20,540 bases of DNA from a virus. Shown here in pieces: positions 1,000 to 20,149 of this stretch. The stretch is taken from the IMG/VR virus record IMGVR_UViG_3300035698_000727, positions 1-20,540 of that record; one strand, 5' to 3'. Both the position numbers and the translations under genes were made by a program. The notes under the pieces are model-generated. The model was not told the DNA's origin. It did not search any database and was given only the letters and a program-made list of their open reading frames with translations. Within the stretch, counting starts at the first letter, position 1. Every line of letters starts with the position of its first letter.

Positions 1000-1785
1000 C
1001 TAAGGGAAGGATTTCATTACTTCAGACTGTGCTACAAACAACTCTATTTTTGATGTATTATCGTTTGAAAGCTCGAATATACCGTAATGTCCTAATATGC
1101 CGTGAGATTCAGATATGCTGTTTTTAAGGTACAATATGTATTCTGTATCTGTAGGTAATGCTACTCCTGGATTGCTATTTATAACAACGTTATTGATCCC
1201 TGCAGGAAGATTTTGATTAACTTCTGTTACTACTCCTGCTCTTTGTGGTGTAGGAGTTCCCCAATATACCACGTCCCCTATGCTTATAATATTTCCAATC
1301 GTTAATGTATTCACAAAGCTAATTGTTGTAAAATCTCCATCTACAACTCTTGTTAGGCTAGTTCCTATACCATTTAATGATCTTAACGCTAGTTGAGGAT
1401 CTAATAAAGTTCCGTTATTCCTAACGAAAGCAAAATAAGCCCCTTCTCTCTTTTGATACCAGTCTTTCTCAATGAACCCTGTGTCTTGTTGATCGCTTAT
1501 TAATGTTGTTTCCCAAGAGTCAGTTCCTTCTATATTTAATGTTTTAAACAACTTATTCTCTAATGGCTGATCGTTAAATACAGACTTTAGTGTTGTAGGA
1601 AATAATTCTCCGTAAAACTCATTTCTAGTCTCGTTAGTATTATGCCTGTAAAGATTACCTCCTTTAAACGTATAGAAGTAATTATTCATCCCTATCATCC
1701 AATCAGGATTATAGGAATAAAAAGATGGCCATCCTTCTACTGAGGCACTGTAAGTTAATGTGTAACTTTGATTTGCTTCTACCAT
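1000..1785 (-). CDS. Tail protein resembling the C-terminal part of crAss-like muzzle/stabilisation proteins
   Basis: A 261-residue protein ending in TAG. Residues 18-60 carry the aromatic pattern GWPSFYSYNPDWMIGMNNYF followed by FKGGNLYRHN and RNEFYG, and the end reads KIELFVAQSEVMKSFP. I recognise both blocks from the C-terminal part of large podovirus tail proteins of crAss-like and flavobacterial phages. Here they form a separate gene, placed two genes downstream of the main muzzle-like reading frame. Residues about 158-222 (VNTLTIGNIISIGDVVYWGT onward to YILYLK) look like a small inserted beta-barrel also seen in the capsid and first ring proteins. It starts 4 bases after the preceding gene's stop. 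Probably a structural tail subunit that contacts the muzzle or adsorption proteins. Confidence 0.7.
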   Translation of the reverse strand: MVEANQSYTLTYSASVEGWPSFYSYNPDWMIGMNNYFYTFKGGNLYRHNTNETRNEFYGELFPTTLKSVFNDQPLENKLFKTLNIEGTDSWETTLISDQQDTGFIEKDWYQKREGAYFAFVRNNGTLLDPQLALRSLNGIGTSLTRVVDGDFTTISFVNTLTIGNIISIGDVVYWGTPTPQRAGVVTEVNQNLPAGINNVVINSNPGVALPTDTEYILYLKNSISESHGILGHYGIFELSNDNTSKIELFVAQSEVMKSFP

Positions 1786-1789
1786 TCTC

Positions 1790-3097
1790 TTATCTGTTTG
1801 ATATAATGAAGTATGCTTTTGTTTCGCTTGGTGTTGTTGTTCCTCCTTCTACAAAATTAAAAGATATTTTGATTTCATGAACAACATTTATGCTGTACAA
1901 TTCTATTAAATCTATAATTTCATTATATGAACTTCCTGGCGTACCTCCAGCATCCCATATCTTATCTGGATACGTATTTATTGTTACTCCATCTATAGAT
2001 AATACGATACTAGTTTTATCATTATCTAAGTTACCAATTGTAGTCACTGTAGTTGCTATATTATAACTAGATGCATTAGATCCTGTATCACCTACATTCA
2101 TTCTAATAGTAGAATAAGAATGATCCGAACCTGATAAGTTAGTTAGCCATGTGATTTCAGGTGAAACACTTACCCCGCTATATGGAAAGGTGAAAGGAAA
2201 AACATTTTTTATATTAAAATCGGTAGCTGGTAGAGGTACATTCCAACTGTCAGAAAGCCAGTAAGTCCCTGCCACGCCCGTTCCATTATGTACTATTGAG
2301 GCAGTAGCACTATCTACTGTTACAGTAGGGTTTCCATTACTATTACTTGCTGTAGTAAACATGTTACTTATCACTGTAGCTCCATTTTTATTTGGAAATG
2401 CAGCATTATCTGACGCTGAAGCAAATACATACTCTAAGAATTTACCTTGCTCTAAAGTGTCTGTAGCTGTATCAGTATCTCCACCTGTAATTTTAAATAC
2501 ACACTCAATATCTATTTCGGGATCTAAAGCAGGGTCAGGAAGCCCTTCTGAGCTTTGATAAGATGCTCCAGTAGCAGTAGCTAAACCTGAGTTCTTTGAT
2601 AATTCATTAATACTAAAACCTGTTGAGCTCCATGTAATATTAGTGTCTGTGATCGTAGATCCATTTGGCTTAGTTAATCCTACAGTGTCAAATATAGTAC
2701 TCAATGCTGTTATAGCTGCCGCACTATCATTATAAGCAAAGTAACCTGAATCCATTAAAGAACCACCTTGCAATGTAACTCTTAATTTAAACTCATCAGT
2801 AGCATCTAATACTCCTATGCCTTTTGACGCTGTAACGATAATATCGTTATCATTAACAGAATTTAAAGGACTATCTGGATTGGAATCAAGTATATTTATA
2901 CTGACTACAGGCACAGGCACACAACTAGGGCAAACTGTGGCACTATCTAAAACAGGAACACCTCCTATTATCTGCTGGCTTCTAGCGATAATACCGTCTG
3001 AATAAAAATTCTCTGGAGCAGGAATTGTCAACGCTTCATCTGTGTAAACACCTGTGGAATTAGCTAAAGTTGATCCATCTACGTAAAATGTTGGCAT
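1790..3097 (-). CDS. Probable surface-exposed tail/adsorption protein, function unknown
   Basis: A 435-residue protein rich in Thr, Ser, Asn, Asp and Val, with many predicted short beta strands and few charges. This composition is typical of exposed virion or fibre-like proteins. The N-terminus (FYVDGSTLANSTGVYTDEAL, then APENFYSDGIIARSQ and a C-P-S-C pair at about residues 56-59) is a module I associate with tail-region proteins of flavobacterial phages: an expected-value-like 'YTD...FYSDG...R' repeat-style head ending in Cys-Pro-Ser-Cys. The rest matches nothing I know. It lies between the muzzle-like gene (15-base gap) and the 261-residue tail protein (4-base gap), so it is co-transcribed with them. 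Host recognition is a reasonable guess, not shown. Confidence 0.65.
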   Translation of the reverse strand: MPTFYVDGSTLANSTGVYTDEALTIPAPENFYSDGIIARSQQIIGGVPVLDSATVCPSCVPVPVVSINILDSNPDSPLNSVNDNDIIVTASKGIGVLDATDEFKLRVTLQGGSLMDSGYFAYNDSAAAITALSTIFDTVGLTKPNGSTITDTNITWSSTGFSINELSKNSGLATATGASYQSSEGLPDPALDPEIDIECVFKITGGDTDTATDTLEQGKFLEYVFASASDNAAFPNKNGATVISNMFTTASNSNGNPTVTVDSATASIVHNGTGVAGTYWLSDSWNVPLPATDFNIKNVFPFTFPYSGVSVSPEITWLTNLSGSDHSYSTIRMNVGDTGSNASSYNIATTVTTIGNLDNDKTSIVLSIDGVTINTYPDKIWDAGGTPGSSYNEIIDLIELYSINVVHEIKISFNFVEGGTTTPSETKAYFIISNR

Positions 3098-3112: not shown

Positions 3113-5956
3113 TTATGTGCAACAAGCAACTACCTCGGTAGGGCCTGATTCTAGTTCAATTATTGTAGTTTTTCTGTAATCATATATAATATACAGATAA
3201 TCTCCGTCTGCACCAGTAGGAACTGTAAATGTTCCTTTATAGTAATTAGGTGCTCCGTCAGAGTTTAAAGATAATACATTTCCTGCTGCTGCATCTAAAA
3301 GAACTCCTATTGATGCTGGTGTATTTGGGAAATTAGTAGCAGACCTTAAGTACTTAAATTTGTATGTAGTTGGTTTAAATACAGCCGTATCTCCTTGTAA
3401 TTTATTAAAAGCTAAAGTTACATCTGATCCGTCAGTAGGGATATTCCCTTGGCCTTGCATTCCTGTAGTTACATTGTAATAACTTACAACATTCACTAAA
3501 TCACTATCGGCAAATTGAACTAAGTTAGATTGTAACGGAGAGTTGTATGTTCCGTCTATAAATCTATTTTCATTATGAATAGTATCTCCAGCTTCAGATT
3601 GTCTTGTTACACAAACCTCTATTAACGTTAGACTCTTAGTTACTGGACATTCAACGTTAATTATTAATATCGTATTATCTGAATTTGCATCTATAGTAAG
3701 CGTTAAAGTGTCTTCGTTAATAGTATCCTTGTCAACCACAAGAGACCCGCTTGACGTTTCACCAAGAGCTTCTACTGTGACTCCGTTGTATAATGCTATT
3801 ACATTAAATGTACTCTCATTTGATATTACCGTCCAACTTATAGTTGACATCCCTACTAAATCTCCTAAATTAAAACAAGCTACATAATTACCTATCCTGT
3901 CAATAGTTATCTGCTGTGTAGTTCCACAATTTATACAGTTTATATCTTGAGGCAACTCTTCTAAGTTTGAAGTAAGAACATATTCTTGCATGTACGGGTC
4001 GTACCCGCCTAGCTTTTGAGTCTCAAATTGTACTTGAAATAGCTCTCTAAACCAACTGCTCATACCCATTTGAGAGACGGGTGTTAGAGATTCATTCTTC
4101 ATAGATGAACCAGTTAGCTGTAGAACCATTCCTCTTTTAGCATCAGTAAAATACTTATGAGCACCATAAACGGCATAACTCTCAGGGTTATTACTTATAC
4201 CGTACTCTTCTATCCTAGCTATTTGCTGACCTAATACTTCAGGAACAGAAGTTAATAAATTTACACCAGAGGCATCTGATAATAGATTCCTGCCAACTTG
4301 TACGTAAGATACTTTATCTTCTTGTAAGACTAGCATATCTCTCTCTCTTCCTTCTAATATCTGTATTGAGCCAAACGACTCTTCTAATATTTTAAAGTTA
4401 AGCAAACCTCCGTTGAACTCATTAAGTCTATTTACATTAGACTCATCACTAAAGTTACCGCTATAAGTTAGGTCTGAGAACCTTCTTATTTGCTCGTAAT
4501 CTTTAGCCTCAGTAGACGTGACTCTATTACCTAAATTAAGATCTTTTCCAATTACACTATCTCTTATTTTATAACTTTCTGCACCGTTCCCAAACGTGTA
4601 GCAATTAAAGAAACTTAAGTTACATATAGCTGAAGTATCTGTAGCGAATATCTGATTAGACTCATCTCCTAAATGTGTTCCTATAGTTAGTGTTATAGAT
4701 GTAATGCTAACATTTACTGGGTTATCAGGAGGTGTTTCTGGAGCTATAACAGCAGAACCGCACTCAGCTATTATAACAGACGAAGAATTAGGGTTTACAA
4801 TTATCTGCTGAGGGATATTATCTATATCTACGTAATCAAAGGCTATTGCATTTGACTCTGCTGCATCTACTGTTAATGTTATTTGACAAGTAGTGTCATT
4901 ATTTACAATACCATACGACTGAGATCCTTCATACCAAATATCTGGAGCTGAATCTAAAGGCTCACTTTCAAATATAACTTGGCCTCCCGGCCTTCTTACA
5001 GATATACTCACGTCTAGTCTAGCTCTCTTATTTTCTTGCCAACTAGCTCCAGAACAAGACTCAGTAGTGTTTATAACTAAAAATAGTAAATTGATAGTTG
5101 TATTTCTATAGAATTGTAAAAAGTTAGTACAATCACCTTCTGGCAAATCATCTGGAGACAGCAGTAAATCATCGTCATAAGAGTTAATAAATTCGCAATC
5201 TAAAGCTGACACTATAGATACACCGTTGTTATTTATGACATCAATTATATTATCTCCTTCAAACCATTCCTTTAAGTTAGAATAAGCCTGAGAAGAGGTC
5301 ACCGTAAAGTTAACCACATAAGTTCTCTGCCCGCAACCACCTTGACCATTTCTATTTGATTTAAAATAAAAAGCCACCTCTGCCCCTGCTGGTATAGCAT
5401 AATCAATATAGCTACCCGGAATGTCAGGATCAGGAATACCTACAGGATAACTAACTAAAGGATGAGATCCTTCATTAGCCCCATCGTCAGATAATATGCC
5501 ATAGGTAGATACTGCATTTTGCTGGTCTTCTGTGCTAAAATTATTAGCTTTAATCCTCATGTAAACACCTGCTGGACTAGTTACGCCAAGAAAGTTAGCT
5601 TCTATAGCTTCCTTTCTTAAAACTGTAACGTAAACACATCCTTTTACCGCTCCGTAAGCGTCAGACTTTACAATTAACCTTTGTCCTTCCGTTATCTTCT
5701 GAGAGTTCTCCCCCTCTAATAAGAAATACGTATCGTTAGAATCATCTATAGAGAAATAAAAACTTGAATATATTGTCTCGTAACCTTCTTTATCTGGCTT
5801 AATAGCAAACTTATACCTTGTCGCCCATGCAGGTGCTACCTGACTTGTAGGGATAATAATATTAATGCTATTTATATTGTCAGATAATGAACAAGGAAAA
5901 TGAGCTGTATTGTATTGGCTTACTTGAGGTGGAGTAGACCTGTTAAAGCTATCCAT
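3113..5956 (-). CDS. Muzzle-like large tail protein, C-terminal segment (downstream of an in-frame TAA)
   Basis: From its first ATG this frame gives 947 residues, but it is open and coding-like upstream to the TAA at 6149-6151, adding 64 codons that end in RGYETGIVYMDSFNRSTPPQ. That phrase is typical of the interior of tail-tube-B/muzzle proteins, not of an N-terminus, so the ATG at 5956 is probably an internal methionine. Other family-like phrases are WATRYKFAIKPDKEGYETIY near residue 45 and LGGYDPYMQEYVLTSN in the middle of the segment. A C-I-N-C pair follows the latter. The last 200 residues are Asn/Thr/Ser-rich beta sandwich-like sequence. In crAss-like virions this protein forms the end of the tail nozzle that opens for DNA ejection. 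It is read with the 517-residue segment upstream as one disrupted gene of about 1,530 codons. Confidence 0.75.
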   Translation of the reverse strand: MDSFNRSTPPQVSQYNTAHFPCSLSDNINSINIIIPTSQVAPAWATRYKFAIKPDKEGYETIYSSFYFSIDDSNDTYFLLEGENSQKITEGQRLIVKSDAYGAVKGCVYVTVLRKEAIEANFLGVTSPAGVYMRIKANNFSTEDQQNAVSTYGILSDDGANEGSHPLVSYPVGIPDPDIPGSYIDYAIPAGAEVAFYFKSNRNGQGGCGQRTYVVNFTVTSSQAYSNLKEWFEGDNIIDVINNNGVSIVSALDCEFINSYDDDLLLSPDDLPEGDCTNFLQFYRNTTINLLFLVINTTESCSGASWQENKRARLDVSISVRRPGGQVIFESEPLDSAPDIWYEGSQSYGIVNNDTTCQITLTVDAAESNAIAFDYVDIDNIPQQIIVNPNSSSVIIAECGSAVIAPETPPDNPVNVSITSITLTIGTHLGDESNQIFATDTSAICNLSFFNCYTFGNGAESYKIRDSVIGKDLNLGNRVTSTEAKDYEQIRRFSDLTYSGNFSDESNVNRLNEFNGGLLNFKILEESFGSIQILEGRERDMLVLQEDKVSYVQVGRNLLSDASGVNLLTSVPEVLGQQIARIEEYGISNNPESYAVYGAHKYFTDAKRGMVLQLTGSSMKNESLTPVSQMGMSSWFRELFQVQFETQKLGGYDPYMQEYVLTSNLEELPQDINCINCGTTQQITIDRIGNYVACFNLGDLVGMSTISWTVISNESTFNVIALYNGVTVEALGETSSGSLVVDKDTINEDTLTLTIDANSDNTILIINVECPVTKSLTLIEVCVTRQSEAGDTIHNENRFIDGTYNSPLQSNLVQFADSDLVNVVSYYNVTTGMQGQGNIPTDGSDVTLAFNKLQGDTAVFKPTTYKFKYLRSATNFPNTPASIGVLLDAAAGNVLSLNSDGAPNYYKGTFTVPTGADGDYLYIIYDYRKTTIIELESGPTEVVACCT

Positions 5957-6148
5957 GTAAACAATACCAGTTTCATACCCCCGATTACTATGTAAACTTC
6001 TTCCTGATCCTGATTTTGAAAATTCAAATGTACTGGACGATATTGTGAAATATTCTGTTACAACTTGACCCGTATCCTCATATTGTATCGCAGGGAATAC
6101 AAAAACTATACTTGTAGATCCGGGGTCTTCACTTGTTAATATAGCCTC
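5957..6148 (-). other. Coding sequence linking the two muzzle segments in the same frame
   Basis: These 64 codons lie between the TAA at 6149-6151 and the ATG at 5956. They contain no stop in the frame shared by the two flanking segments. My translation starts EAILTSEDPGSTSIVFVFPA and ends SNRGYETGIVY, which is ordinary protein sequence continuous with both sides. So this is not an intergenic region. If translation really restarted at 5956, these 192 bases would be untranslated yet conserved as coding, which seems unlikely. Confidence 0.8.
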
Positions 6149-6151
6149 TTA
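6149..6151 (-). other. In-frame TAA interrupting the muzzle-like gene
   Basis: The codon order on the minus strand is GGT ATT TAA GAG GCT. The frame is identical on both sides, so a single substitution (for example from CAA, GAA or AAA) would restore one open reading frame from 7702 to 3113. I see neither a classic read-through context after the stop nor a suppressor tRNA among the five tRNA genes in the window. Confidence 0.85.
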
Positions 6152-7702
6152 AATACCTGTTATCCCACTCTCAAATTTATTAAAAGAAGCAATAGTATCT
6201 AAAAATAAACTATTGTAAATATCTGTCACTGTAGTTCCATCGTTAGACGTAGACATAGGTTGTATTGTGCCTCCGGGTAATGAAGTACCTATAGCGTTTA
6301 TAAACTCAGTGCTTATTGAGAAATCAAACACACTATCGTAAGACTGAGATAATGTTAATGCAAAAGAGAACTCTATAGGAGGGTTAACACTAGGGAAGGG
6401 AGCAGTCCCGCTCCAAGAATCATGTTCAAATGAAAAAGCGAAAACGAGTAAAGCTCCTACGACTAAATCAACACCATCTAAATCGAAAGAAACGCTAGAG
6501 TCATTAATGGTCACAGCCCCTTGTATACTGTAATTTGTAAGAGATAAATCACCCGAGACCCCTGTAGATATAAATTCATTTGAAACTTTCTCTACGTTAT
6601 AATCTAACCTGACACTATTCCCATTGAAATCTATAAGATCATACCCCTCTAGGTAATTACCATAAGTAATTCTATTTCCTATAATTGTTTGTGCTTTAGC
6701 TAATAAAGGTACGTTATCGTAAAGCCTTAATATCTCTGACTCTGGAAGAATAGTGAATATCTTACTGTTAGAAAATGTGTATACTACATTCTGAAAATCA
6801 CTATATCCTTGATCTTCTTTATCTAATTTTTCTATTATTTTTATTATAGAGTTATTCTGATCTTTAAACAATAAATCAACTCCTTTTACTAATTCACCTC
6901 CAGTGTTAAATGTAATATTTGCGGTGTTGTAAAAGTTAGTCATTCCTTCATTCAAATAACTAGCCGATGAAAGGTCAAATCCGTTAGGATCAAATGCCAC
7001 TTCAGTCCATTGAGAAGTTGCTGAGTACTCATCGTCATCGTATTTATATCTATAAGCAAATGAAATAAACCTTTCTAATAAGAAATTATTTTCATTTGTA
7101 GTAGTTATTAAATTAAGATCAGGGGCTTTAGACGGTGGTTTTTTAATGACTAAAATATCATTATAATTAAATGTATCTATACTGTTCGTATTTGGAGAAC
7201 CGTATGACTTATTTATATTTATCTTTCTTGGTGGATTATAATCATCGCTAAAAGGCAATAGATCTTCAATCATATTTATTGCCGTAATTAAGTACTGAGG
7301 ATTAAAGTTTAGCGTAGTATTAACACCTCCTCCATCATCCATGCTTATGATGTGATAAGTAATAGTACTCGTAGTGGTATTATACGAAACTATTAAATCA
7401 AGCTTACCCGTGTTAGGGCTACCCGTGAAACTCGGATCATGTACCATCCAGTATAATGTCTCTCTAGCTCCGTCCTCAATCTTACCTATAGTCCTAGCGT
7501 TTGACGATAAAGATACCCCGTCATACTGAAGAGTGGTTAAGTTAGTATTTCCTTTGGAGTTCTCTATAACACCAATCTCAGATAATTCGGTAGAACCCAT
7601 ACGGATGTTTAAGGCATCAATGTATTCCCCGTTTGGCACGAGTCGTTCATCGACAATCTTATTCATTTTGCCTGAAGTAAAATTCCTTGTTAATTTAGCC
7701 AT
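6149..7702 (-). CDS. Muzzle-like large tail protein (tail-tube-B/stabilisation type), N-terminal segment
   Basis: A 517-residue frame opening with AKLTRNFTSGKMNKIVDERL, then NGEYIDALNIRMG and GVIENSKGNT. This is the hallmark N-terminus of podovirus tail tubular protein B-like and crAss-like muzzle proteins, which form the distal nozzle of the short tail. Further blocks typical of the family are FSDDYNPPRKININ (about 150-165), ERFISFAYRYKYDDDEYSATSQWTEVAF (about 210-235) and DNVPLLAKAQTIIGNRITYGNY (about 330-350). It ends at a TAA with no domain boundary in sight, and the same frame continues immediately afterwards. It starts one base after the stop of the second ring protein gene. The product would be a truncated nozzle unless the stop is bypassed or is a sequence error. 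Confidence 0.85.
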   Translation of the reverse strand: MAKLTRNFTSGKMNKIVDERLVPNGEYIDALNIRMGSTELSEIGVIENSKGNTNLTTLQYDGVSLSSNARTIGKIEDGARETLYWMVHDPSFTGSPNTGKLDLIVSYNTTTSTITYHIISMDDGGGVNTTLNFNPQYLITAINMIEDLLPFSDDYNPPRKININKSYGSPNTNSIDTFNYNDILVIKKPPSKAPDLNLITTTNENNFLLERFISFAYRYKYDDDEYSATSQWTEVAFDPNGFDLSSASYLNEGMTNFYNTANITFNTGGELVKGVDLLFKDQNNSIIKIIEKLDKEDQGYSDFQNVVYTFSNSKIFTILPESEILRLYDNVPLLAKAQTIIGNRITYGNYLEGYDLIDFNGNSVRLDYNVEKVSNEFISTGVSGDLSLTNYSIQGAVTINDSSVSFDLDGVDLVVGALLVFAFSFEHDSWSGTAPFPSVNPPIEFSFALTLSQSYDSVFDFSISTEFINAIGTSLPGGTIQPMSTSNDGTTVTDIYNSLFLDTIASFNKFESGITGI

Positions 7703-9671: not shown

Positions 9672-9676
9672 GATAG

Positions 9677-9750
9677 TGACTCATGCAGGACTCGAACCTG
9701 CAAAAAATAGATTCTAAATCTACTATGTGTACCAATTCCATCAATGAGCC
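9677..9750 (-). tRNA. tRNA-Leu(TAG) with a short variable region
   Basis: The acceptor arms GGCTCAT and ATGAGTC pair over 7 bp (one G-U) with discriminator A. The D arm reads GATGGAATTGGTACACAT, very like bacterial tRNA-Leu. The anticodon loop TTTAGAA gives anticodon TAG (codon CTA). The T arm is GCAGG-TTCGAGT-CCTGC. Only about 5 T residues separate the anticodon and T stems, instead of the long class II arm usual for Leu. No CCA is encoded. Confidence 0.85.
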
Positions 9751-9756
9751 ATACTG

Positions 9757-9830
9757 TACTCCACCTTGGACTCGAACCAAGACTGAACAGAGTTTAAGTC
9801 TGATGCCTCTGCCTATTAGGCTAGTGGAGT
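9757..9830 (-). tRNA. tRNA-Leu(TAA) with a short variable region
   Basis: The acceptor stem is ACTCCAC with GTGGAGT (7 bp), T8 and A9 are present, and the discriminator is A. The anticodon loop CTTAAAC gives anticodon TAA (codon TTA). The outermost anticodon-stem pair is a T-T mismatch. The T arm CTTGG-TTCGAGT-CCAAG is perfect. The variable region is only 5 bases, not the long Leu arm. It reads sense codon TTA and not stop codons. Confidence 0.85.
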
Positions 9831-9834
9831 ATTT

Positions 9835-9907
9835 GCTGTTACCTGAGGCTCGAACTCAGATCATCGGATTCACAGTCCAACCGCTTAACCATTTAGCGTA
9901 ATAACAG
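9835..9907 (-). tRNA. tRNA-His(GTG)
   Basis: The acceptor stem is CTGTTAT with GTAACAG. The D stem CGCT/AGCG, anticodon stem TTGGA/TCCGA and T stem CTGAG/CTCAG all pair. The loop CTGTGAA gives anticodon GTG. The discriminator is C73, the histidine identity base, but the base at -1 is T and not the usual encoded G. No CCA is encoded. Confidence 0.9.
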
Positions 9908-9909
9908 AG

Positions 9910-9980
9910 TTTTTCCAACTGGACTCGAACCAATAGTACAACCGTCAAAGGGTTGTGTGTTACCATTACACTATAGAAAA
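9910..9980 (-). tRNA. tRNA-Gln(TTG)
   Basis: The acceptor is TTTTCTA with TGGAAAA. The D arm ATAGTGTAATGGTAACACA is almost the standard bacterial Gln D arm. The anticodon stem is CAACC/GGTTG and the loop CTTTGAC gives anticodon TTG (codon CAA). The discriminator is A and no CCA is encoded. It is a sense tRNA and not a cognate suppressor of TAA or TAG. Confidence 0.9.
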
Positions 9981-10001
9981 ATATAAGACCGTGCCTTTAG
10001 G

Positions 10002-10073
10002 TATGGGGAGCAGGATTTGAACCTGCGACCTCTCGCTTCCAAGGCGAGTAAACAACCACCGTTATCTCCCCAT
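10002..10073 (-). tRNA. tRNA-Pro(TGG)
   Basis: The acceptor is ATGGGGA with TCCCCAT and the discriminator is A. The anticodon stem CTCGC/GCGAG encloses the loop CTTGGAA, anticodon TGG (codon CCA). The T arm GCAGG-TTCAAAT-CCTGC is perfect. The D arm is weak (about 3 good pairs) and position 8 is G instead of T, so this gene is somewhat divergent. It is the first tRNA of the array, 7 bases after the terminator at 10081. Confidence 0.8.
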
Positions 10074-13565: not shown

Positions 13566-15992
13566 TTATCTTGGATTAAATTCTGATAAATCGAATCCAT
13601 CTAAGCTGTCCTCGTTTGATTCAAAATTTACAGGAGCTAGATTGTTTTGTCTCTGATCTATCAATTTAGACTGTTGAGTACTCTGTTCTTTAATTCTATC
13701 TGATTTTGAAGCTTCTCTTTGGTCTTCTCTCATCTGCAACTGCTGTCCTTCTATTTGCCTAATCTGCATATTTAAGTTAAACTCTTGAGTCATCAGTTGA
13801 GACTTCAATTTAGCTTCCTCTTTCATCTTCTCTATCTCAAATGCCACATCAGCTTGCCTATATTGAATCTTAGCCTGAGCCTCTGCTTGTATTTTCATCT
13901 GAGCAGATTTCTGAGCTAACTCTTGAGATTTTAACTGCTGCTGTGCCTGCATCGCTTGTTGCTGCATCTGCATCCTTTCTTCACGATCTTGTTTAGCTAG
14001 TCTTTTCAATTTTAGTAATTGATTAGCTAATTTCATATTTCTTATCTCCCTAATATCAATTGCATCTTCTAGGTTTATATCTCCTTTAGATAGTGCTAAT
14101 TGTATATTTTGCTCTAATTGCGCTTTTTGCTCCTCATCTGGAGATAGCTCTATAAATATACCAAAGTCATATATGTACAAGTCCTTAATATCCCCAAGTA
14201 TAGATACGTTATACTTACCTATTTGGTTAATAAATTCCTCCTTAAAGTCTGAGTATTCTAATATATCAGCTACTCTATATGTGATAGCTTGAGCAAATGT
14301 TCGATACATATAAAGACTAGCATCTAAAACGTGTCTTGTAGCTACGTTTGAATTTAAAGCGGCTATCTTCTGAAGTCCAATTGAACCGTTAGGATCAGCA
14401 TTTGATCCGTCTCTTGCTTCATTTACTCCCGTCACCCCTCTAATTTGATCTAGGTAATGATTGTAATTGGAAATAAGCATCTGTGTCTTTGACGCTCCTG
14501 AAGATGATTGTAATTCTTTAATTGGAACTTTACCTTGGTTGTATTCCCCGTCTTGAGTGTAACTACGGCCAACCACACTACCTGTTTGAAAGTATAAACG
14601 TAAAGCATCTTCTGGTGCGTAGGCCGCGCCCCCGCCTAAATCAACTTCATTTATTCCGTCCGCATCTATATATACACCGTCTGGTACAACTCTTTGTATT
14701 ACCTGCTGTAGCTTCATGTGCGTGATCTGTATAAGATCAGCAAATGTGATAGCTCTACTTACCATAGACTCAATAGACCCCTTGTACATACGAGGTGCTG
14801 TACATATATAATTAGGAATAGCATGCTGAGCAGCTGATTGTGGCCTTACCATGTTCTCCATAAGTTTCCACTGAAGCACAACATTAGTGCCTAATACCAT
14901 TACTCCTTCATACCACACGTCAATAGTCTTAGACTCCATCGTAAAGTTCCCATCCTCTTGCATTTCTACAGGAGGATTGAACGTGTCGTCCTTCTTAATC
15001 ATACTAACGTTTCCGTTATCTTTTACTTTTCTTTTGTAAACAACTTTCTTTGTCGTCTTATAATTGAAATACAACAAATTAGTAGTCTCCCTTGAGAATA
15101 TGCTATTACTATCTGGATTATATTCACGAGTCCAACTGTCAGAGTACTTGGAAATTTCCTCTAAATCATCTGTCGTTAATTCTGGATCAATTTTAACAAG
15201 CTCACCTATGGAGACTGATTTTACTTCACCCCAATAGAAACAATCTTTAAAATTAGGATCTTCAGTATAACTATAAATAAGGTTTGCAGGATCAACATAA
15301 GACAGCCTTACACCATCGCCAGCTAAGAACTCATGTTTACCACACGATATCCCTAAATCTACCATATCCTTATCTAATCTCTTACGAGTGTCGTCATACA
15401 TATTTGACTCAAATAAAGTACTTATAGCCTGTTCTGTGGCTATCTCTATTGCTGGCTTGTAATTAAGCTGCATGTATAATTTAAGTTCTTCGTCTGAGTT
15501 AGGTAACTCATTAGAATCTACTGTAAAAGGATTAACCCCCACTTTTTTCTGAATAGTCTCTAACATAGGACGGGCTAACATTTGCCCCTCTATCATTTGC
15601 TGATACTTACTTCTCTTAGATTGTGATAGCGCGTCTTGCGCAAATGCTTTTGGTACGAACTCCCTGCTCTGTAAGCCATTTACAACAATGTCTACAAATT
15701 TAGGTATGATAGGAACAGGCGTCCAATCTAAGTTTAGATAAGATAAATCGCCATCAATAGCTAATTCATTCTTATACTTAGCTACCGACTGCTGGCCTCT
15801 TGAATATAACCTACGTCTGTGAAATTCTCTCTGCTGCTCGTAATACCTACAACTACCACCGTCTTTAATAAACCATTGATGTTGAATACTCTGGCCTATC
15901 CTTAATCCAAAATCAAGCGTTTCTTTTTCAGAGTCTGAGACAAATTGACTTGGAAAACCTTTGTATGGTATGTTGATTTCTACTTTTTTCAT
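13566..15992 (-). CDS. Portal protein
   Basis: An 808-residue protein that forms the dodecameric ring at the packaging vertex. The N-terminal part (RYYEQQREFHRRRLYSRGQQ, then LDWTPVPIIPKFVDIVVNGL, QSREFVPKAF) and the central block (RGVTGVNEARDGSNADPNGS, then IGLQKIAALNSNVATRHV) match portals of crAss-like and related podoviruses. The latter resembles the wing-to-crown region that precedes the C-terminal barrel. From about residue 640 on it is a long glutamine-rich coiled coil (MQMQQQAMQAQQQLKSQELA and similar), which in podovirus portals can form the barrel inside the head. The start ATG at 15992 overlaps the TGA of the terminase (ATGA), so the two are translationally coupled. Scaffold and capsid genes follow. 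Confidence 0.85.
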   Translation of the reverse strand: MKKVEINIPYKGFPSQFVSDSEKETLDFGLRIGQSIQHQWFIKDGGSCRYYEQQREFHRRRLYSRGQQSVAKYKNELAIDGDLSYLNLDWTPVPIIPKFVDIVVNGLQSREFVPKAFAQDALSQSKRSKYQQMIEGQMLARPMLETIQKKVGVNPFTVDSNELPNSDEELKLYMQLNYKPAIEIATEQAISTLFESNMYDDTRKRLDKDMVDLGISCGKHEFLAGDGVRLSYVDPANLIYSYTEDPNFKDCFYWGEVKSVSIGELVKIDPELTTDDLEEISKYSDSWTREYNPDSNSIFSRETTNLLYFNYKTTKKVVYKRKVKDNGNVSMIKKDDTFNPPVEMQEDGNFTMESKTIDVWYEGVMVLGTNVVLQWKLMENMVRPQSAAQHAIPNYICTAPRMYKGSIESMVSRAITFADLIQITHMKLQQVIQRVVPDGVYIDADGINEVDLGGGAAYAPEDALRLYFQTGSVVGRSYTQDGEYNQGKVPIKELQSSSGASKTQMLISNYNHYLDQIRGVTGVNEARDGSNADPNGSIGLQKIAALNSNVATRHVLDASLYMYRTFAQAITYRVADILEYSDFKEEFINQIGKYNVSILGDIKDLYIYDFGIFIELSPDEEQKAQLEQNIQLALSKGDINLEDAIDIREIRNMKLANQLLKLKRLAKQDREERMQMQQQAMQAQQQLKSQELAQKSAQMKIQAEAQAKIQYRQADVAFEIEKMKEEAKLKSQLMTQEFNLNMQIRQIEGQQLQMREDQREASKSDRIKEQSTQQSKLIDQRQNNLAPVNFESNEDSLDGFDLSEFNPR

Positions 15993-18589
15993 GTAATAAT
16001 TTCACTTCTTGAGCCCGAATTACTGTACCTTGCAAAGTTAACCTTTATTTTTGACTGTTTTTGCTCAGGTAAGTACATACCTTTTTGAGTTGCCATTATA
16101 GCCAATCCTGAGCTAATAGACGCATCGTGATTAGTTCTATTGCTAATATCAAATTTAGACCAATCTTCAAGTGTCCTGTTAAATATCATAGTACCCATTT
16201 CGATTGAATCCCTATAGTTTCCATCGGTATCTATACCTACATGCTTCTCAATATAAGACTCAATAGCTGTAGCGTGTGACTGCTTTACGTCTTCGCTTGA
16301 GTTAGGAATACCTCCTAGCTCCTTTTCTGTTTTAGAAAGTTTATTCCATCTCTTGTCTGGACGGTTAATTGAGAACCCTCTATATCCCCTGTTTTTAAAA
16401 TGATATAATAATCTAGGCTTGTTATTCTCTATTAAGATAGGCATTCCATAAAAAACACAAGCCTTTAAAACGTCTTCATAAAATATCTCCGCTGTCTGAG
16501 GTCTTGCTATGTATTCTAAGAAAAACTCATTCACAGGTGCTTCATCCATGTGAAAAGTAGTTAACCCATGAAGAGAGCCGTTAGACCCGCCTCCACCAAC
16601 TATACCTGATATATCGTAGCTATCACAACCGAAAGCTCCGAGGTGATCGTTTGCTGGATATTTCACTCCGTTCTTTACATGAAACCTATTCTGCATATTC
16701 TTTTTAGGAGTCCAGCTAACCCTAAATCTTCCTCTAACATCAGGGTTAAATACTACCTTAGTATCCTTCTCACCATTTAACCAAGTCATGTTGCCAATTG
16801 TCACCTCTTGTCCTATTATTAACGTATCATTATAATCAATCTGTTGATATATTTTGGTAAGATTAAATAAAGACTGCTTAGACTCATCTCTAAATGCGTG
16901 AGATTCCGTTCTTGGGAACTGACGGTAAAATTCATTTAATGCGTCAGGATCACTTTTTAAAGAATCAACCTCACCTTCCCAATAGTCAATAGCACCATCT
17001 CGAATCATCTCACCATCTATACCTAACAAAGGCTCTAAAGGTGTTCTAAATACAGGCCAACCAAATCTATCTATATATCCCTCGAAATTCCACTCCATAG
17101 GTATGAATAAAGAATACAACCCACTCTTAGTCCTACCGTTCTTACTCCTATTGCTTACGTCAGAATCATAATATAAAGCCTTATATTCCGCTCCACCTTT
17201 ACTTAGAGCATTGGAGGTTGAACCCATCATGCACTTGCCTATGATTTTTGCTCCTAACCTTAAGCACGTCTTTGTAACTCTCCAGTTGTTTAGTATGTTA
17301 TTGGGTTTAAGCCATTTTGCAGAGTTCATAGACACAGTGAAGTCGCTAAGTATTAGCTTTCTTTCATTGTCGTTTTCTCCGTTTACCTGTATCCCAACAT
17401 ACCCTCCATAATCTAAATATTCTACCGATACTTTACTTCTTCTTCCCCTTGATTTAGGAGTGTAATTTTCGAAACTTTTATATTTAGATAGAATAGGTAT
17501 TCTAGATAAATCTCCAGATATTCCTACTCTGTATACTTGAGTGTTAAAGTTAGATGTATAATTTTCAATATTACCACAACTTAATCCACAGGATAGGGCG
17601 AGTAATCTAATGTCTTCTATAAGACCTAATCGGCTCATTCCTATAGATACTGTTCCTTTTTTTAAATCTGAAAACCCATCTGAATCAGAAATTCCAGCTA
17701 AAACCTGAAGTCTTGCTTCTATAGATGATTTTAAATACTGTTTTGGAATGTGCTTATTTTTAAATACGCCTATTTTTTTTAGCTCTTTATTTATTTTTTT
17801 AAATCTAAATTCAACAACCTTCTCATTACATTCAATTTGATCTTTTATGTAAAAATCTATTTTTTTCATTTTAGCTATCATTCCTAGATACTCCAATATT
17901 TCTGGAGATCTTTGAACATTTACCATTATTGACATTGACTCTTGCCTGCCATCTCCTAACCATAAACCTAGAAGATATGGAGGTATGCCATCAAAACAAT
18001 CTTCTGACTCTATTCCTTTTGACACTACTCTAGTTAAATGCTGCTTAATAAATCCTGAAGAATTAATGTAGTCTTCTGGATTCATAATAACTTCTTCATG
18101 ATATCCTTTTTTCAGCCTAGCGTTGTACTTATATCTATTAAATACCAATCTGTGGTTTTTAGTTACAATATAATCTTTTCCGTATGGCTGTTTAACTATG
18201 TACCTATCAGTTTGACCTGAAATGGTTTTCATTACTGTTTTAATTACGCCTCCTTCAATAATAACTTTTTCTCCAATCTTAATGTCTTTTATTTCTTTAA
18301 AACTCCAATCATCCATTAATATTTTAGTCTCTGGAGCATAACATTCATCGTGAGCTAAGAATAATAACTTTTCTCCATCGTATGAGTTATCATCTGTATT
18401 CTTCCAATCTATACTTGTGTCCAGCCCTTCTAATTCCTCAAGGTCTGTCTCGTACATATTCTTTTTGGTAATCTTAGCCGCTGGAATCCTAAATGCTAAT
18501 TCAGTCTTTGGCTTATCCATACCATCTTGAATAGGTTTAAAAAAGAACGGAAGACTGTTTGCTATAGGTACTACCTTATCGGTAAACAT
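15989..18589 (-). CDS. terL: Large terminase subunit, C-terminal part, with an intein in the Walker B site
   Basis: An 866-residue frame. Residues 1-82 are the middle of the packaging ATPase, ending in the Walker B motif KLLFLAHDE. Residues 83-422 are an intein. Residue 423 on resumes the ATPase (SAKWLKPNN, then motif III region KCMMGSTSN at 452-460). The RNase H-like nuclease has candidate acidic residues at D656 (GCDSYD), E721 (ILIENN) and D823 (NHDASISSG). Seven more codons upstream of the ATG (TGSDAKK) are also TerL-like, so the true N-terminus is in the preceding frame. After splicing and frame repair TerL would be about 749 residues, a usual size. The enzyme cuts concatemers and pumps DNA through the portal, whose gene overlaps its stop. 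Confidence 0.9.
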   Translation of the reverse strand: MFTDKVVPIANSLPFFFKPIQDGMDKPKTELAFRIPAAKITKKNMYETDLEELEGLDTSIDWKNTDDNSYDGEKLLFLAHDECYAPETKILMDDWSFKEIKDIKIGEKVIIEGGVIKTVMKTISGQTDRYIVKQPYGKDYIVTKNHRLVFNRYKYNARLKKGYHEEVIMNPEDYINSSGFIKQHLTRVVSKGIESEDCFDGIPPYLLGLWLGDGRQESMSIMVNVQRSPEILEYLGMIAKMKKIDFYIKDQIECNEKVVEFRFKKINKELKKIGVFKNKHIPKQYLKSSIEARLQVLAGISDSDGFSDLKKGTVSIGMSRLGLIEDIRLLALSCGLSCGNIENYTSNFNTQVYRVGISGDLSRIPILSKYKSFENYTPKSRGRRSKVSVEYLDYGGYVGIQVNGENDNERKLILSDFTVSMNSAKWLKPNNILNNWRVTKTCLRLGAKIIGKCMMGSTSNALSKGGAEYKALYYDSDVSNRSKNGRTKSGLYSLFIPMEWNFEGYIDRFGWPVFRTPLEPLLGIDGEMIRDGAIDYWEGEVDSLKSDPDALNEFYRQFPRTESHAFRDESKQSLFNLTKIYQQIDYNDTLIIGQEVTIGNMTWLNGEKDTKVVFNPDVRGRFRVSWTPKKNMQNRFHVKNGVKYPANDHLGAFGCDSYDISGIVGGGGSNGSLHGLTTFHMDEAPVNEFFLEYIARPQTAEIFYEDVLKACVFYGMPILIENNKPRLLYHFKNRGYRGFSINRPDKRWNKLSKTEKELGGIPNSSEDVKQSHATAIESYIEKHVGIDTDGNYRDSIEMGTMIFNRTLEDWSKFDISNRTNHDASISSGLAIMATQKGMYLPEQKQSKIKVNFARYSNSGSRSEIIT
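17324..18343 (-). mobile_element. LAGLIDADG homing-endonuclease intein inside terL
   Basis: This 340-residue block starts with Cys (CYAPETKILM, then IKDIKIGEKVI: the A block). It continues with the B block VTKNHRLVF, where T143 and H146 of the frame fit T-x-x-H. Two LAGLIDADG motifs follow, PYLLGLWLGDG (about 203-213) and LQVLAGISDSDG (about 293-304). It ends with GIQVNGENDN...LSDFTVSMN followed by Ser as the first C-extein residue. The F/G block keeps the terminal Asn, but the penultimate His is replaced by Met. The insertion is exactly after the Walker B Asp-Glu, a typical site for inteins in essential ATPases. Confidence 0.9.
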
Positions 18590-19257
18590 TTTCTTTGCAT
18601 CCGAACCTGTTTAGATAACACTCCTATTCTAGAATCTTTTGCTAATGTACCTATGTTAACACATTCAGAGGATTCCATATATGAAAATCCAGAACGCCTT
18701 ATCTTTAGGTACTGCATACCAAATGATCTATTGTCTGCCTTACACGCTTCCCAATGTAAAAATAAAATCCTATTAGCCTCTCTAAAATCAGGATACCCTA
18801 TATCAATTTTAGCCCATTGGAGGTACATATAATTAGATCCAGTGATATAAGTAGACTCACCGTTATTCATAAACCATACTCCTAATTCTCTACGGTCAAA
18901 TTCACCTTCTATGTAATCTACCCACTTATCTTTAAACTCTCTTGGTTTCTCATTCCATTGAAATATTGACTGTATTTTAGAAAGGTCTTTGGGTAAATCT
19001 TTTCTTTCCCAATATTGCTCTGACTTTTTACCTGATCTTTTTTCGCAACTATTTGGTTGTTTAGGTAGGGCTATATTTAATCCTTGGACAGATATAATAT
19101 CCCCTATCTGGCCGTCTTTAGATATAACTACAAAATCATATTTTTCATCATAGCCGTAAACCCAAGACTTTGTTTTGTTTTTTTTAGCCAAAACCGTCTT
19201 AGGAACTATATCGTGTAGTGTAGTATATAATCTACTTTGATGCTCTTCTTTCTGCAA
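18571..19257 (-). CDS. terL: Large terminase subunit, N-terminal part (frame broken)
   Basis: A 228-residue frame. Residues 1-216 are the start of TerL: a charged leader, then KIQSIFQWNEKPREFKDKWV, GVWFMNNGESTYITGSNYMY, then DFREANRILFLHWEACKADN, with the Walker A-like sequence LKIRRSGFSYM at about 184-194. This is the deviant P-loop form (K-x-R-R-x-G-x-S) seen in crAss-like terminases. The last 12 residues (QVRMQRKCLPIR) are out-of-frame readout. In the other frame the same bases give TGSDAKKMFTDKVV, the expected continuation after VLSK. So this fragment and the 866-residue frame are one gene with a one-base lesion. The ATG overlaps the upstream gene by 26 bases. Confidence 0.9.
   Translation of the reverse strand: MQKEEHQSRLYTTLHDIVPKTVLAKKNKTKSWVYGYDEKYDFVVISKDGQIGDIISVQGLNIALPKQPNSCEKRSGKKSEQYWERKDLPKDLSKIQSIFQWNEKPREFKDKWVDYIEGEFDRRELGVWFMNNGESTYITGSNYMYLQWAKIDIGYPDFREANRILFLHWEACKADNRSFGMQYLKIRRSGFSYMESSECVNIGTLAKDSRIGVLSKQVRMQRKCLPIR
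18609..18612 (-). other. Apparent single-base deletion (frameshift) in terL
   Basis: The minus-strand bases read TTA TCT AAA CAG GTT CGG. One additional A in the A run would give TCT AAA ACA GGT TCG GAT GCA AAG AAA ATG (SKTGSDAKKM), which restores the TerL frame. The run is three A here and presumably four in an intact gene. A short homopolymer is a common place for both sequencing and replication slippage. Confidence 0.85.
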
Positions 19258-19513: not shown

Positions 19514-19589
19514 CTTTTATTCGTTTTGTCTTTTTCAAAGGTATTTCCTCATTCCACATCTCATCCCAATACATGTACTTCCTTTTCAT
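19458..19589 (-). CDS. Small basic protein overlapping the pre-terminase genes
   Basis: A 43-residue frame starting at an ATG whose ATGA overlaps the TGA of the GroES-like gene, a sign of translational coupling. The sequence begins MKRKYMYWDEMWNEEIPLKK and ends in a basic, Lys/Arg-rich tail. Its last 56 bases overlap the start of the 93-residue gene in another frame. It fills the 72-base gap that would otherwise separate the two genes. I do not recognise the family. It could also be fortuitous, and its tail may be only a by-product of the overlap. Confidence 0.45.
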   Translation of the reverse strand: MKRKYMYWDEMWNEEIPLKKTKRIKDGVKRDKARDNKSRTQSS

Positions 19590-20149
19590 AAAACTAAATT
19601 TATTTGATGATCGTACATTCTGTATAATTTCTCATCGTCTACGGTAAACTCATATTCGCTGTCTGGATTGAATGATATCTTATCTCCTTTATTTAACCCC
19701 TCGGATTTCAAATACTCACTTGGATAAATCATATAACCAATTAGAGGCTCTTCTGTAATAGGCTTATCTATGAACGTGTGCTCTACCTCCGCAGGTTTAA
19801 CAAAGCAATATTTATCATGCGCATTCCATCCGTCTTCATTTTTATAAAGAAAAAACTGATCGTTGTCTACGAAGAAAAGGTCATCTTTAAAGTAGCTTTT
19901 GCCACTCCTTTGATTACCTTTCATGTCATTGTAAAACTTGAACACGTTATGATGAACTAGAAGCGTGTCTCCTTGCTTTATCTTTCCTTTGTAATGCAAT
20001 GGGGTCTCTATAACTATAGCCTCCCTATTAGATGCTCTATGGTCTTCCTGAGAAGTGCTAATTATAAACTCTACTCCTCCTACTTCTTTTGTATTATTAT
20101 ATCGCCTCCCTTTGGAAGGTTTTACAATAAAAGAAAATGGTGATTGCAT
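19586..20149 (-). CDS. GroES-like (co-chaperonin fold) phage protein
   Basis: A 187-residue protein. The sequence FIVKPSKGRRYNNTKEVGGV, then STSQEDHRASNREAIVIETP, KIKQGDTLLVHHNVFKFYND (about 57-74), DQFFLYKNEDGW and YCFVKPAE follows a strand order found in Hsp10/GroES-like proteins: 'V-x-P' near the start, a flexible loop about where GroES has its mobile loop, 'GD-x-V-x-x-x' and a closing 'V' strand. I recall this family from many phages of Bacteroidota, close to packaging genes. GroES-like action (helping host GroEL fold capsid protein, as T4 gp31 does) is plausible but unproven. It starts at TAATG overlapping the upstream stop. Confidence 0.6.
   Translation of the reverse strand: MQSPFSFIVKPSKGRRYNNTKEVGGVEFIISTSQEDHRASNREAIVIETPLHYKGKIKQGDTLLVHHNVFKFYNDMKGNQRSGKSYFKDDLFFVDNDQFFLYKNEDGWNAHDKYCFVKPAEVEHTFIDKPITEEPLIGYMIYPSEYLKSEGLNKGDKISFNPDSEYEFTVDDEKLYRMYDHQINLVL

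Follow-up and report, generated by a model that had tools for sequence, protein, structure and literature searches.

The window analyzed in this work (20,540 bases, the whole of a virus record of the IMG/VR type) carries on its reverse strand a muzzle-like structural gene that is interrupted by an in-frame TAA (Table 1). Two open frames of 517 and 947 residues, the first starting at 7702, lie in one and the same reading frame and are separated by this TAA and by 64 codons that resemble normal protein, which is how the first-pass annotation had described the locus and which is borne out here by the coordinates and the coding statistics. A single profile model, PHROG 14478 (1474 positions), spans both fragments, with its positions 761–1363 matched by the stretch from 3116 to 6148 (E = 3e-113, profile search).

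Table 1. Features of the window discussed in the text, with their coordinates, strand and supporting matches.
Feature	Coordinates	Strand	Evidence or remark
Crassvirus muzzle C-terminal domain gene (PF25729, crAss_MUZ_C)	1000..1785	-	57.9 bits (cut-off 27)
Downstream fragment, 947 aa, remainder of muzzle-like protein	3113..5956	-	Opening ATG encodes a Met internal to a conserved motif
64 sense codons between the TAA and the next ATG	5957..6148	-	Include the nearly invariant motif SLHSNRGYExGIVY
In-frame TAA, codon 518 of muzzle-like gene	6149..6151	-	Aligned column Gly 32, Asn 6, Gln 3, Pro 2 in 43 IMG/VR relatives
Upstream fragment, 517 aa, N-terminal part of muzzle-like structural protein	6149..7702	-	PHROG 14478 positions 3-371, E 1e-100
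Five-tRNA cluster (Leu-TAG, Leu-TAA, His, Gln, Pro)	9676-10073	-	Inside structural gene block
Terminase large subunit, remainder, other frame, with intein-like insert	15989..18589	-	PHROG 6681 positions 297-749
Terminase large subunit, N-terminal fragment	18571..19257	-	PHROG 6681 positions 12-217, E 1e-44; relatives' matches extend to ~19293

The 64 codons that follow the stop are real coding sequence, since they are free of stops, score as coding and align to the relatives. The gene frame holds no stop across this segment, whereas the two alternative frames have 3 and 6, and from base composition the chance of a stop-free segment of this length is about 0.6%; the coding score is likewise above zero in the gene frame only. 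The mean identity of the segment to the relatives is 37%, with values of 34% and 55% for its two flanks, and residues 567–582, which contain SLHSNRGYETGIVY, rank among the best-conserved stretches of the muzzle-like protein. Throughout the window, no other in-frame stop was found within any gene that aligns across it, the remaining in-frame stops on the list being located at gene edges or on the opposite strand.

The relatives give a consistent picture of what occupies the site elsewhere. Scanning IMG/VR with the downstream part of the muzzle-like gene yielded 46 loci, two of which (L043 and L047) end short of the site and were left out of the site count. An uninterrupted single frame crosses the site in 43 of the 44 readable loci (19 groups at 95% identity), and the residue aligned to the TAA is always one of the four amino acids given in Table 1, never a stop. 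Only L039 departs from this pattern, through an unrelated change of frame that lies upstream of the site, between window residues 443 and 528. We considered it as a second break at the same site and rejected it, as the frame change is at another position and is another kind of lesion. This change (L039:5662–6028) sits in the same variable segment of the gene and could be either an error or a real shift. A single gene is also found in all four GenBank phages compared, namely MW202828 (Manatee Spring), Cellulophaga phi46:3, Flavobacterium elemoF and Tenacibaculum Gundel_1, with lengths of about 1551, 1612, 1493 and 1386 residues, respectively. Taken together, a stop is present at the column in none of the 48 relatives readable there (44 from IMG/VR and 4 from GenBank). 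The segment around the TAA varies in length among the relatives, and is shorter or absent in Gundel_1 and phi46:3. Because the relatives have single frames and one PHROG 14478 model covers both fragments, the ancestral state is a single gene in which a sense codon occupies the site. Identity in the muzzle-like protein is only about 50% even to the closest relatives, and the TAA could conceivably be common to a narrow phage lineage; the exact DNA pattern around the stop had no match in IMG/VR, and a scan of genome contigs found no relatives.

Among the phages covered by PHROG 14478, annotated as a virion structural protein, our comparison took in Cellulophaga phi46:3 (Pachyviridae), the Flavobacterium elemo phages (Elemovirus) and Caudoviricetes sp. 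MW202828. The window has the same gene in the same place, after two smaller structural genes, and both of its fragments are covered by the family, whereas in all of the phages examined the gene is one uninterrupted frame. The description of the gene as "muzzle-like" in the first-pass annotation seems a fair name and is supported by indirect homology through Gundel_1. The Gundel_1 version of the gene passes both Pfam crAss_MUZ and crAss_MUZ_C, the Elemovirus version passes crAss_MUZ_C, and the window protein is homologous to that of Gundel_1 over much of the Pfam-matched part (61 bits). A direct search with PF25731 (crassvirus muzzle) gave no match to either window fragment, even at an E value of 10. 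Searching the PDB by sequence, with both fragments and with the family profile, produced no convincing match, and a fold search of the PDB with a low-confidence model (mean pLDDT 59.8) returned meaningless matches only. The fold of the crassvirus muzzle comprises a ring-joining domain, a seven-bladed propeller, and Ig and crass domains; in BFVD the same model gave low TM-scores, its matches being a crAss-like "stabilization protein" and, more faintly, the N-terminal region of a muzzle.

The muzzle of phicrAss001, gp44, is a hexameric gatekeeper of the tail tip whose length varies by insertions (PMC10172136). Measured against that protein (PMC10172136; PF25731, PF25729), the likeness is that both are very large tail-tip proteins of Bacteroidota phages, while the differences are that the large protein of the window falls short of PF25731, that its C-terminal domain is on a separate gene, and that no solved structure is matched to it by sequence or by fold. 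The PF25729 gene is also separate in MW202828 and phi46:3, and in Elemovirus and Gundel_1 the muzzle C-terminal domain is fused to the large protein. A gene lies between the large protein and the PF25729 gene in both MW202828 and the window; in the window this gene (1790–3097, reverse strand) matches the relatives over its first ~59 residues only, with its far end looking as if it were exchangeable.

The fact that the downstream frame opens with an ATG, at 5956, invites the reading that the gene has genuinely split into two proteins, and parts of the muzzle are truly split in this lineage, as the separate PF25729 gene illustrates. We regard such a split as very improbable. The methionine in question, Met-583, is an internal residue; 40 of 43 relatives also have Met at this position and three have Leu. 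The motif that holds Met-583 begins upstream of it, with S572, R574, Y576, E577 and Y582 invariant; a protein begun at this ATG would be without the first half of the conserved motif. The 30 bases 5' of the ATG are merely conserved coding sequence, and in no relative is there a stop or a separate start at Met-583. Structural considerations point the same way. In an AlphaFold model of residues 1–1130, in which the stop was entered as a placeholder residue (mean pLDDT 59.8), residues ~360–935 are mostly at pLDDT 60–89, the stop falls between predicted strands 508–513 and 522–524, and residue 583 ends a strand comprising residues 574–583, all at low-to-moderate confidence. The model, itself of moderate confidence, supports the view that the break would fall inside a folded region. 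Since the ATG at 5956 is an internal Met of a nearly invariant motif, the downstream frame is not a separate gene. The first-pass annotation had named, as one finding that would overturn its account, relatives in which the two proteins stand well apart and the start at 5956 is conserved; what is conserved in the relatives is Met-583 as an internal residue, and neither a conserved division of the gene nor a dedicated second start was found among those aligned.

We then consider whether the stop could be decoded. Programmed read-through of the UAA, yielding tail proteins of 517 and ~1,529 residues, would account for a frame that remains open and conserved past the stop, and the first-pass annotation had offered this as one option. 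The stop, however, is missing from all 47 intact relatives, as well as from L039 at the site. Near the stop, the RNA is no more stably folded than its shuffled versions (z of 0.35, −0.06, −0.41 and 1.06; the test covers structures other than pseudoknots), tRNAs were the only matches to Rfam, and the contig carries no suppressor tRNA. With the stop unconserved and neither structure nor suppressor tRNA to assist it, this proposal went unsupported, and we give it very little credence. Repeats, promoters and terminators around the stop were not found above chance, and the literature on read-through and on assembly-error pseudogenes held nothing bearing on this case. A related version, in which the UAA is real within a narrow lineage and is partly read through, so that the tail would contain few full-length and many 517-residue copies, strikes us as equally far-fetched.

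Reassignment of TAA to an amino acid in this phage has nothing in its favor beyond the single codon 518, and we consider it next to impossible. TAA is the commonest terminator of the window, ending the genes at 1790, 3113, 8630, 10217, 11037 and 13566 among others, and the codon at 6149–6151 is the sole TAA of the window inside a gene that aligns across it; on these two grounds an altered code is excluded. Two supporting remarks made at first pass hold up as well, as TAA, TAG and TGA all terminate other genes in the window and none of its five tRNAs reads a stop codon. These tRNAs (Leu, Leu, His, Gln and Pro) have ordinary anticodons, and the Leu tRNA with the anticodon TAA reads the codon TTA.

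The muzzle-like gene is not the only core gene of the contig that is broken. While the account of the tail-gene stop given at first pass was accurate, it missed a second break, in the terminase large subunit. The relatives' single terminase frames, of ~760 residues, switch between two frames of the window at ~18,610, and comparison with the L052 peptide shows that the frame of the window shifts by one base near 18,600, next to a short stretch of A residues. The terminase is whole in 73 of the 74 relatives that have this part of it. Annotators could misread the broken terminase (18571–18620, reverse strand) as two genes. The ATPase part of the terminase also contains an intein-like insert at ~17,500–18,260 (reverse strand), with Hint and LAGLIDADG homing-endonuclease matches (Pfam Hom_end_hint and Hom_end); the insert is missing from most of the relatives' 760-residue terminases, and a 1103-residue frame in L056 has a homologous one. 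Just upstream of the terminase, the stretch 19586–20149 (reverse strand) matches a PHROG family annotated as co-chaperonin GroES.

Breaks of this kind are rare among the relatives, at 1 in 48 for the tail gene and 1 in 74 for the terminase. Since each gene is so seldom broken, yet both are broken on one contig, a shared cause at the level of the contig (poor consensus or a defective phage) seems likely. The two core-gene breaks point to contig-level error and, with less likelihood, to a defective phage. That isolated nonsense codons do occur in single public contigs of this gene is seen in L042, which differs from L008 and L009 at 2 of 4404 bases in the gene, one of the differences creating an in-frame TGA near the C-terminus. 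Like the case in the window, this is an in-frame stop made by one base that affects the gene in one record only; unlike the stop at codon 518 it lies close to the C-terminus, and near-identical intact records (L008 and L009) exist for it.

A real loss of function, in which a defective phage or a decaying element has had both the muzzle-like gene and the terminase knocked out, would also explain why one contig has breaks in two core genes. We judge it rather unlikely, though considerably less so than any reading that makes the stop functional. Compared with the relatives, the other genes of the window show no frame breaks or internal stops, and invariant sites have not clearly gained extra substitutions (12 of 178 sites changed in the window and 9 of 175 in L006, with no clear excess beyond what a long branch would lead one to expect); no damage is seen in the conserved motif that lies between the stop and 5956. 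For these three reasons the data fit either a very recent event or an error. Counting against error is the fact that the TAA lesion need not involve an insertion or deletion, which makes it less typical of platforms prone to homopolymer errors. On balance error is favored over mutation or decay, a preference that is inferred rather than shown.

The TAA is thus very probably an isolated, non-programmed nonsense codon in one 20.5-kb metagenome contig, and 3113–7702 one gene of ~1,530 codons for a large protein of the tail tip, a relation of the crassvirus muzzle. Its cause is probably a base-calling or assembly error, and otherwise may be a recent damaging mutation in the phage, which we hold to be about half as probable. 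The suggestion at first pass of a substitution artefact or a genuine knockout is in this respect supported, the relatives showing a sense codon and one long frame. Were the codon real, translation would stop after 517 residues, inside a folded region, and everything 3' of the TAA would go missing, the part that matches the muzzle among it. No working product would come from the remainder, and the virion would depend on an intact copy of the gene.

The finding is an ordinary one: an error is the likeliest cause, with a chance mutation as the alternative, and it is not a design for two products. It serves as a caution that, when only one metagenome contig shows an in-frame stop, the stop mimics recoding until the relatives and the rest of the contig have been checked, and the presence of a second broken core gene points at the contig rather than at biology. 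For annotation, the locus is to be described as one interrupted muzzle-like gene and not as two proteins.
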